A DNA stretch of 64,000 nucleotides. It comes from Gammaproteobacteria bacterium (GTDB taxonomy: Bacteria; Pseudomonadota; Gammaproteobacteria; Burkholderiales; Gallionellaceae). Position numbers and translations under genes: made by a program. The DNA lies in contig JAHJBC010000001.1 of the NCBI GenBank assembly GCA_018813765.1, positions 186,001 through 250,000 of the forward strand, in the 5' to 3' direction. The first letter of the stretch is position 1; the number at the start of each line of letters is the position of its first letter. Shown piece after piece: positions 15,872 through 17,737 of the stretch. The notes below the pieces were generated by a model. It saw only the letters and a program-made list of their open reading frames with translations, was not told the origin of the DNA and did not search any database.

Positions 15872-16822
15872 ATGAACAGCGCGATGCTGGAATTGGTCTA
15901 TGGCGAGGCGTGCCTGTATCCCAGGGAGCTGGAATTGCGCCATCCGCGCATCCTGGAAAAAATCGTGCTGCTGTGGCACACGCCGCAAATGGAGGGATTT
16001 TTCCGCGAGTTGATGGTGAGCACGCGCGCCGACCGGCAGGGATTTTCGCACGAGGTCGCCAGCGAACTGTTTTATCTGGAAGAAGTATTCGAAGGCACGC
16101 GTAACTTGCCCAAGGTCTTCGACGAGAATCCGCTGGCTCAACTCAACAACAAGCCAACCAGAAACGTAAACTTCGAACATTCGCCGCAGGATTTCATCAA
16201 CATGCGCTCGCCCAGCGACGACAGCCCGTGGGCCAGCGTCAAACCCGACGCGCGGCAGGCAATAGAAAGCCTGGGCTATCCCTGCACCGCGAACGGTTTC
16301 CTGAAAGCGACCGGCGCCAGGGATCTCAAGGCAATCGGCCTGTTCCTGCATTGCGACATCAATATCGACACCTGCGACGAGCGCGGCTGGTCGCCACTGT
16401 TCTTTGCGGCGTTCAACGGCAACCTCGAACTGGCCAAGCTGTTCCTGGAGTTCGGTGCCAACGTGAATCTCAAGGACCACGGCGGATTCCTGCCCTCGCA
16501 CTGGGCCGCGTACAACGGCCACGCCCACGTCATCAAGCACTTCGTCACCCATGGTGCGGAGGTCAATGCCCAGAGTCTGCGCGGCTGGACCGCATTGATG
16601 ATGGCCGCCATGAACGGTCATCTGTCCGCCTGTTCCGCGCTGCTCGCGAGCGGAGCCGAGACCGGGCTGGTTTCCGGCCATGGCTGGACCGCGCTGCAAA
16701 AGGCCAGCTTCAACCATCAAATGCCCGTGATCAAACTGTTCCTGTCCTTATTGAAGGATCATGTGAAGTTCTTCAAGCCGTCGGCCTCTGGTGTTTTGAC
16801 TGATCTGCCAAGCGCGATCTAG
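15872..16822 (+). CDS. Ankyrin-repeat protein
   Basis: A 316-residue protein with about 170 N-terminal residues of unknown fold followed by four ankyrin repeats. The first is near 171-203 (RGWSPLFFAAFNGNLELAK), and the others are near 204-236, 237-269 (RGWTALMMAAMNGHLSA) and 270-300. Ankyrin repeats bind proteins; the partner is unknown. No signal peptide or membrane segment is visible, so it is probably cytoplasmic. The 182 bp upstream contain no recognisable gene and only weak promoter-like sequence. Downstream lies the terminator of a minus-strand small RNA candidate. Confidence 0.85.
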   Translation: MNSAMLELVYGEACLYPRELELRHPRILEKIVLLWHTPQMEGFFRELMVSTRADRQGFSHEVASELFYLEEVFEGTRNLPKVFDENPLAQLNNKPTRNVNFEHSPQDFINMRSPSDDSPWASVKPDARQAIESLGYPCTANGFLKATGARDLKAIGLFLHCDINIDTCDERGWSPLFFAAFNGNLELAKLFLEFGANVNLKDHGGFLPSHWAAYNGHAHVIKHFVTHGAEVNAQSLRGWTALMMAAMNGHLSACSALLASGAETGLVSGHGWTALQKASFNHQMPVIKLFLSLLKDHVKFFKPSASGVLTDLPSAI

Positions 16823-16910
16823 TGTAGTGCGGCAGGCGGAGCAAATGACGCAAAGGCTGCTTGCGAGCACATACTGACCTTGCAGTCCTGTCATTTATGG
16901 CTACATGAAA

Positions 16911-16942
16911 GAAAAAGCCCCCGCGCCGAACGGCGCGGGGGC
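16911..16942 (-). terminator. Rho-independent terminator of the small RNA
   Basis: A perfect 12-bp stem, GCCCCCGCGCCG with its complement, at 16917-16942 is followed on the minus strand by TTTTTC (16916-16911). The U-tract is on the minus-strand side only, so it terminates minus-strand transcription. It may also act weakly as a 3' hairpin for the ankyrin mRNA. Confidence 0.8.
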
Positions 16943-17013
16943 AAAGTCTTAACACAAGGGGGAGTTAAGACGCACGCTCAGGGAGGAGAAACGTGCAGCA
17001 GCTTGCGCTGCCG
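16911..17013 (-). ncRNA. Candidate small RNA with anti-Shine-Dalgarno loops
   Basis: Read on the minus strand, about 103 nt fold into four hairpins. The first is GCAGC-GCAA-GCTGC (16998-17011), with a GNRA tetraloop. The second has stem GCACG/CGTGC (16972-16976 with 16992-16996) and a 15-base loop containing CTCCTCCC. The third is an 8-bp stem (16946-16953 with 16964-16971) with loop TCCCCCTTGT. The last is a 12-bp GC-rich terminator followed by T5. A consensus promoter precedes it. CTCCTCCC loops can pair with ribosome-binding sites and are the hallmark of CcsR-type stress RNAs in alphaproteobacteria and of some other anti-SD sRNAs. Membership of any named family is inference. Confidence 0.65.
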
Positions 17014-17019
17014 ATGATT

Positions 17020-17048
17020 AGAATATTATTAAACGCTTATATTGTCAA
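17020..17048 (-). promoter_or_regulatory. Sigma-70 promoter of the small RNA
   Basis: On the minus strand a perfect -35 TTGACA (17048-17043) is separated by exactly 17 bp from TATTCT (17025-17020). This predicts a transcript start near 17013, just before the first hairpin. No open reading frame of note follows, and the terminator lies about 100 nt downstream. Confidence 0.65.
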
Positions 17049-17269
17049 CTCCCTTCTTTCCGGCGGGCACGGCCCCACCGTAACCGCCCCCGATAATTTC
17101 GTTTGCTATTCCTGTCTTTCGCGTGCATAGTGCGCTCCGCGATTCAAGTCTGTCGTTGTTGTCTGGTTCTGTACCCGCATTCCTGCGGTATTTCTCCCTT
17201 CATCTGTCTGCCGTCTTGAACTTCGCTCCAAAGCGGGCGCGTGCCCTTAATTTTTTCAGGAGATTCAAA

Positions 17270-17473
17270 ATGGCAACAGGTACAGTCAAGTGGTTCAACG
17301 ATTCCAAGGGCTTCGGCTTCATCACCCCGTCCAACGGCGGCGATGATCTCTTCGCCCACTTTTCCGCTATCCAGAGTTCGGGTTTCAAGACCCTGACCGA
17401 AGGCCAGCAAGTCGAGTTCGACATCGTCGCCGGCCCCAAGGGTCAGCAAGCGTCGAACATCCGCGCGGCTTAA
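17270..17473 (+). CDS. Cold-shock protein (CspA family)
   Basis: A 67-residue single OB-fold cold-shock domain beginning [18 protein letters not shown]. The RNA-binding motifs RNP1 (KGFGFI) and RNP2 (LFAHF) are intact. It melts RNA structure in the cytoplasm, at low temperature or generally. The ATG at 17270 has an AGGAGA ribosome site at 17258-17263. Upstream in-frame starts would add an unrelated leader. The pyrimidine-rich stretch from about 17130 to 17269 is probably an untranslated leader, as in other csp genes. The IF-1 gene follows after 3 bp. Confidence 0.93.
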
Positions 17474-17476
17474 GTT

Positions 17477-17737
17477 ATGGCAAAGGAAGAGCTGCTCGAA
17501 ATGAGCGGTGTGGTGGACGAAGTGTTGCCGGATTCACGCTACCGCGTGACGCTGGAGAACGGCCACAAGCTCATCGCGTACAGCGCGGGCAAGATGAAGA
17601 AGAACCACATCCGCATCATCGCGGGTGACAAGGTCTCTCTCGAACTCTCGCCTTACGACCTGACCAAGGGCCGCATCACGTTCCGTCATATCGAGACGCG
17701 CGGTCCGTTCGTCCCGCAACAGCGACGACGTTACTGA
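17477..17737 (+). CDS. infA: Translation initiation factor IF-1 (second-copy type)
   Basis: An 86-residue S1/OB-fold protein that starts [20 protein letters not shown] and includes [15 protein letters not shown] and [12 protein letters not shown]-1 occupies the ribosomal A site during initiation. Canonical IF-1 has 72 residues. This one has a basic tail ending PQQRRRY, matching the longer IF-1 paralogue found in many betaproteobacteria. The primary infA is therefore probably elsewhere, in the ribosomal-protein cluster. Its place 3 bp after a cold-shock gene suggests joint induction in the cold. IF-1 levels are known to rise on cold shock in E. coli. Confidence 0.92.

Follow-up and report, generated by a model that had tools for sequence, protein, structure and literature searches.

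An anti-hemB-family small RNA gene beside csp and infA in a Gallionellaceae genome, differing from hemB-linked copies in its class of promoter and in where a C-rich element lies

The window, which is the whole 64-kb stretch of DNA analyzed here, carries on its minus strand at 16911-17048 the boxes TTGACA and TATTCT separated by 17 bp, followed by approximately 103 nt with four hairpins, the last of which is a terminator. An ankyrin-repeat protein gene lies on the terminator side of this small RNA (sRNA) gene, and a divergent cold-shock protein gene (csp), followed by an infA-type gene, lies on the other side. The Pfam scan of four neighbouring proteins yielded Ank, CSD, IF-1 and Metallophos. 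The features of the locus are as follows.

15872..16822, plus strand: gene for an ankyrin-repeat protein, adjoining the terminator side (Pfam Ank_2, 1.2e-29)
16911..17013, minus strand: sRNA of about 103 nt, anti-hemB RF02837, predicted ends (Rfam match, fold z score, covariation)
16917..16942, minus strand: intrinsic terminator, 11 G-C pairs, GUUC loop, T-rich tail behind
16946..16971, minus strand: hairpin 3 (minimum free energy [MFE] fold; two-sided changes in 1/8 pairs among 14 copies and 4/8 among 28 copies)
16954-16963, minus strand: UCCCCCUUGU loop of hairpin 3, second C-rich element (MFE fold)
16972..16996, minus strand: hairpin 2 (MFE fold; two-sided changes in 3/7 pairs)
16979-16988, minus strand: CUCCUCCCUG loop of hairpin 2, main anti-SD-like element (letters nearly invariant among copies)
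16997..17012, minus strand: hairpin 1 with GCAA tetraloop (MFE fold; two-sided changes in 5/6 pairs)
17020..17025, minus strand: -10 box TATTCT (invariant across the four csp-linked copies)
17043..17048, minus strand: -35 box TTGACA (invariant across the four csp-linked copies)
17104-17112, plus strand: TGCTATTCC, a possible extended -10 element of the divergent csp, within a block conserved in 4/4 csp-linked loci
17270..17473, plus strand: csp, divergent neighbour (Pfam CSD, 1e-30)
17477..17737, plus strand: infA-type gene for IF-1 (Pfam eIF-1a, 2.2e-22)

The first-pass annotation had claimed that an sRNA with two C-rich, anti-SD-like loops is encoded on the minus strand here, and the claim was supported by the fold, the relatives and the covarying stems described below. 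The promoter it named is present at 17048-17043 and 17025-17020, and the GCAA hairpin, the CUCCUCCCUG hairpin, the UCCCCCUUGU hairpin and the terminator were all recovered in the MFE structure; only the terminator stem, given there as 12 bp, had to be corrected to 11 bp, all of them G-C. The two promoter boxes share 10/12 letters with the consensus at a spacing of 17 bp. In the 1.1-kb region one promoter-like match was present where shuffles gave 0.5 on average, and the promoter match alone is therefore weak evidence. The fold of 16911-17013 on the minus strand amounted to -57.6 kcal/mol, compared with -32.3 +/- 3.1 for 200 dinucleotide shuffles (z of -8.1), none of which folded as well as the sRNA. 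In the four csp-linked copies, dense conservation extends from the -35 box through the terminator and stops there, with 15/17 letters of the promoter spacer (17026-17042) invariant in the four genomes. The spacer and its flanks make up an imperfect AATAT...ATATT palindrome, at which a regulator site is possible.

The annotation had called for a covariance-model search, by which Rfam assigns the sRNA to RF02837 (anti-hemB), a family also known as Burkholderia RNA 7. The match at 16910-16997 covers model positions 1-81 of 81 with a score of 55.1 bits (gathering score 49.5) and is the only Rfam match at gathering score within the 64-kb window. The hairpin with the CUCCUCCCUGA loop, the middle hairpin and the terminator are all present in the window copy. 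The location at hemB that gave the family its name, which the model does not demand, is absent, as the window copy adjoins csp and infA. We therefore regard the window sRNA as a further copy of a catalogued family and as no new class of RNA.

Two copies of RF02837 over the cut-off were detected in the genome to which the window belongs, namely the window copy and a copy upstream of, and divergent to, hemB (G000:C13:216984-217070). The family was present in 53/61 genomes searched (own included) and scored over the cut-off in 52, and the control genomes gave weak matches in 3/14, none of them over the cut-off. We examined the best 30 loci (L004-L033) together with 20 chosen lower-scoring ones, so that the copy counts leave out the other hemB-scoring matches as well as eight matches below 30 bits. 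HemB adjoins 30/31 of the best-scoring loci checked (L001 and L004-L033), with L007 as the exception, and hemB is thus the usual place of anti-hemB copies. Among the 20 lower-scoring loci, 15 possess the CCTCCCTG hairpin, and the five without it (L046, L048, L051, L052 and L053) were dropped. Three of these 15 copies reside at csp/infA (G007, G008 and G014), the others have different neighbours, and HemB was found in the flanks of none of the 15. Two of them (L047 and L050, both of G035, which belongs to another genus) were used in the promoter survey and excluded from the alignments.

Of 34 congeneric genomes (own included), 30 contain a close match to the infA-type gene, and the sRNA motif lies beside it in 4 of the 30. 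The 26 negatives include three loci cut off by a contig end (G013, G026 and G030) and two with no csp match next to the infA-type gene (G012 and G002). When the csp-linked copy was treated as a trait on the hemB gene tree to test for a single origin, four changes were needed, no better than with shuffled labels; the starred branches force two changes, many branches being open, and G028, sister of G008 and scored as negative for the copy, gave no match to the infA-type gene. The window copy probably arose by duplication from the hemB-linked copy and came to lie beside csp and infA, this direction of duplication being inferred.

The annotation had let its proposal hang on whether loops and stems are kept in related genomes, and we found them conserved, with covarying stems. 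With the 14 duplicated (non-hemB) copies aligned, pairing holds in 93.5% of 447 cells, and two-sided changes were observed in 14/32 pairs (5/11 in the terminator; the feature list gives those of the other stems). The covariation score was 0.287 against 0.170 +/- 0.012 in shuffles, with 0/500 as high, and slid controls ranged from 0.050 to 0.107. Because related sequences may exceed shuffles without any structure, more weight should go to the slid controls. The number of further pair types was a less striking measure (30 against 26.9; 22/500 shuffles as high). When 14 of the 29 scanned hemB-linked copies were taken into the alignment, which then comprised 28 copies, 85.3% of 892 cells paired, two-sided changes occurred in 19/32 pairs, and the covariation score rose to 0.340 (0.198 in shuffles, at most 0.098 in slid controls); further pair types were again a weak measure, with 20/500 shuffles as high. 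The tetraloop of the first hairpin conforms to GNRA in 11/14 aligned copies. The CCTCCCTG letters are invariant partly by selection of the data, because the copies were located by CCTCCCTG.

The copies fell into two promoter classes. All 29 hemB-linked copies scanned bear a promoter resembling GGAACTT-N15-17-TCTGA, with 8-12 of 12 letters matching and at least 10 of 12 in 28 copies; the site of L013, with only 8 of 12, was not better than its shuffles (p of 0.28). The copy L007, not counted as hemB-linked because of the absence of HemB in its flanks, has 10 of 12 matches, and L009, which is hemB-linked, stayed outside the scan because its loop reads CCTCCTCG. Among the 16 copies located elsewhere (window included), ten are GGAACTT-like (9-10 of 12) and six are TTGACA/TATTCT-like (10-11 of 12). 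The latter six comprise all four csp/infA-linked copies, the window copy among them, and two further copies, and no significant GGAACTT site was found in any of them. Beside hemB, the GGAACTT-type promoter occurs in nine families of the order, including the window's own.

We take GGAACTT/TCTGA to be the consensus of sigma-E promoters. The genome encodes one RpoE over the family cut-off (312.5 against 236.15 bits), but GGAAC was not found within approximately 480 bp upstream of its own rpoE, so that the assignment of the GGAACTT promoters to RpoE, made from the consensus, is tentative. Judged by these motifs, the promoter of the hemB-linked sibling would be of sigma-E type and that of the window copy of sigma-70 type. 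A narrow literature search found no published link between anti-hemB and RpoE; what is new here is the contrast between copies in promoter class, the family itself being already catalogued. Among the copies that other congeneric genomes have away from both HemB and csp/infA, L034, L035, L037, L038, L040, L043 and L044 have GGAACTT-type promoters, and the spacer contains TATTAG in 5 of these 7. TATTAG is also seen in L042 and L045, but with a TTGACA promoter and an 18-bp spacer.

The siblings differ in the place of the second C-rich element as well, which was scored by simple patterns on alignment columns. In the hemB-linked copies, the UCCCCU/CCCCUUU element was found in the terminator loop in 13/14 and in the loop of hairpin 3 in 0/14; in the duplicated copies, the C-rich element was found in the loop of hairpin 3 in 13/14 and in the terminator in 0/14. 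The exceptions are the hemB-linked copy of G048, the terminator loop of which contains CCCCCU and was missed by the pattern, and the duplicated copy of G016 (UCUCCAUUU). The main loop is common to the hemB-linked copy and the window copy.

We propose that the locus is the gene of a trans-acting sRNA of the anti-hemB family, probably a duplicate of the hemB copy, which would block the translation of metabolic mRNAs, and we give this reading a probability of roughly 0.75. The RNA, probably aided by Hfq (an hfq gene is present in the genome), would pair through the single-stranded CUCCUCCCUGA of hairpin 2, with UCCCCCUU of hairpin 3 as a secondary pairing element. The C-rich loops would cover ribosome-binding sites rich in purines, for example AGGGAGGA, and would thereby keep a group of mostly metabolic mRNAs from being translated. 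Given its sigma-70-type promoter, the window copy would be made in unstressed growing cells.

A role as a multi-target translational repressor is plausible, and candidate targets were sought by sequence complementarity. In the own genome, AGGGAGGA was found 4-9 nt before ATG at 10 sites, compared with one for the backward control, and the similar AGGAGGGA at five listed places (one site counted twice), compared with three. Candidate targets among the 10 AGGGAGGA sites are genes for an acetyl-CoA-synthetase-like protein, a 4Fe-4S protein, a hydrogenase maturation protease and a hemerythrin; the sites also include doubtful frames, and several are not convincing genes. The combined list for G007, G008 and G014 has 13 sites, two of which correspond to the opposite strand of sRNA genes, and one of the candidates in G007 is a gene of the lactate/malate-dehydrogenase family. 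The acetyl-CoA-synthetase-like gene, shared by G000 and G007, is the sole ortholog pair that recurs when the 10 G000 sites are compared with these 13, and the conservation of targets across genomes is thin. The strong pairing energies of the candidate targets follow from how the candidates were picked.

The loop-1 search with TCAGGGAGGAGAAA at up to two mismatches gave 20 matches (two sRNA genes included) against eight for the backward control. A few of them lie at start codons, namely that of a BON-domain protein (L112) and those of frames whose translations resemble phosphoglycerate kinase (L113), a small lipoprotein (L116), adenylosuccinate synthetase (L118) and a chemotaxis receptor (L122). 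The best matches in the loop-2 search belong to a dispersed repeat, and L128 and L130, which are close upstream of apparent genes, may be targets. This G-rich, CCCCCTGACAAGGGGGAGTTGGAGGGGGTTT-like repeat is scattered over the genome (L126, L127, L128, L129 and L143 around position 1501), and the second loop of the sRNA (window 16954-16967) has its complement in the ACAAGGGGGAGTT of the repeat, a match that may reflect chance or a sponge.

The neighbourhood raises the alternative that the locus is a cis-acting element of csp-infA, such as a cold-shock switch, or an antisense RNA controlling these genes. An Rfam match to the cspA thermoregulator at 17118-17511 on the plus strand (51.4 bits under a gathering score of 78, E of 5e-12, partly over coding sequence) suggests that csp may have a cspA-like leader, and this match starting from 17118, together with the conserved TGCTATTCC block, places the probable start of the csp transcript near 17119. 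Starting 105 bp apart, the csp and sRNA transcripts are probably divergent and non-overlapping, which speaks against the mutual antisense control suggested in the first-pass annotation, and the sRNA has its own minus-strand promoter and terminator directed away from csp. As for pairing, the start region of csp reaches -11.5 kcal/mol with loop 1 and exceeds the mean of 53 start regions in the window (-8.1), but the helix is split and 6/53 regions pair better, and the start region of infA is average (-8.0). Thus, the geometry gives no support to csp and infA as antisense partners, and they are weak candidates as pairing targets. Although four genomes keep the sRNA next to csp and infA, the infA-type gene stands without it in the remaining 26 of 30 (including the three truncated loci), and hemB is the usual neighbour, so the special tie to cold shock suggested in the annotation finds no support here, nor does antisense control. 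We regard control of csp-infA as quite improbable.

The C-rich loop likewise evokes the CcsR/cuckoo (suhB/mmgR) family, and CcsR RNAs are, according to the annotation, known for a CUCCUCCC motif. The RF00519 model gave a match of 27.6 bits, beneath its gathering score of 41, whereas RF02837 passes its own threshold and fits better; on this score we rejected the kinship with CcsR that the annotation had raised. CcsR is reported from alphaproteobacteria, often with a gene for a DUF1127 protein in the same locus (PMC10253847), and no DUF1127 protein was found among the four neighbouring proteins scanned; membership of this family has a next to negligible chance. Another account makes the sRNA part of a sponge or decoy pair, in which it binds, or is bound by, repeat-containing transcripts via the second loop. 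The complement of that loop, ACAAGGGGGAGTT, is indeed part of an element repeated at five or more places, and three of the six closest matches (L125-L130) precede a frame of at least 50 aa that starts within 20 nt downstream; however, the second loop varies among the csp-linked relatives, and at up to two mismatches there are 24 matches (sRNA gene included) to 16 for the backward control, and we consider the account very improbable. The window copy could also be a decaying or redundant duplicate without a function of its own, as would suit its patchy distribution over the infA-type loci and the presence of the main loop in the hemB-linked copy as well. The compensatory changes in the stems and the dense conservation, including that of the spacer, point to selection after the duplication, and this possibility is unlikely.

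The proposed trans-acting anti-hemB-type repressor can be compared with characterized RNAs. Its homologue in Burkholderia cenocepacia, ncS04, is a 105-nt transcript with a RACE-mapped 3' end, is cited as Hfq-bound, and did not vary significantly across the seven conditions of a qPCR table (PMC5688073), so that induction by stress is only a proposal for the hemB-linked form. The window copy resembles anti-hemB/ncS04 in score, in the CUCCUCCCUGA loop, middle hairpin and terminator, and in length, but differs from the hemB-linked form in its location, its promoter class and the place of its second C-rich element. The Neisseria NmsRA/NmsRB are sibling RNAs with two anti-SD motifs that directly reduce enzymes of the TCA cycle and have a connection to RelA (PMC5362039). 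The NmsR genes are arranged in tandem under stringent-response control, unlike the two copies here, and the NmsRb model (RF02877) gave 23.6 bits against a gathering score of 52. The double-hairpin RNAs of B. cenocepacia are predicted to cover ribosome-binding sites, and overexpression of one of them, ncS27, slows growth (PMC5688073); Bordetella S17 has a conserved region rich in C and U and is a direct repressor of a sigma-54-type regulator (PMC11722255). These betaproteobacterial toxic/double-hairpin RNAs (RF02278; ncS27 and bdhR1, with S17 similar) share with the window sRNA CU-rich unpaired stretches facing ribosome-binding sites, but in B. cenocepacia they have mostly two hairpins and a length of 57-92 nt (PMC5688073). 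The RF02278 model scored 27.5 bits on the window sRNA (gathering score 50) and found no match in the own genome, nor did the same search find any in the control genomes. The anti-SD idea fits these relatives (for further context, see PMC3521395 and PMC10987360).

A literature search found no published study of the targets of anti-hemB or of its control. The promoter contrast between the siblings is clean and testable, while the class of mechanism is already known. We tentatively suggest, at somewhat less than even odds, that the duplication left a sibling pair under divided control, a sigma-E copy at hemB and a sigma-70 copy at csp/infA, in which hairpin 3 took over the second anti-SD element from the terminator loop and both copies act on the same metabolic network. 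If true, one type of loop would link both envelope stress and ordinary growth to a single metabolic translation network in Sideroxydans-like bacteria. The hemB-linked form can now be tested as part of a sigma-E-type regulon, as can the idea that copies may diverge in their class of promoter and in where a targeting loop sits, with the main loop retained. Such differences between siblings would amount to a natural experiment on the division of labour among sRNAs.
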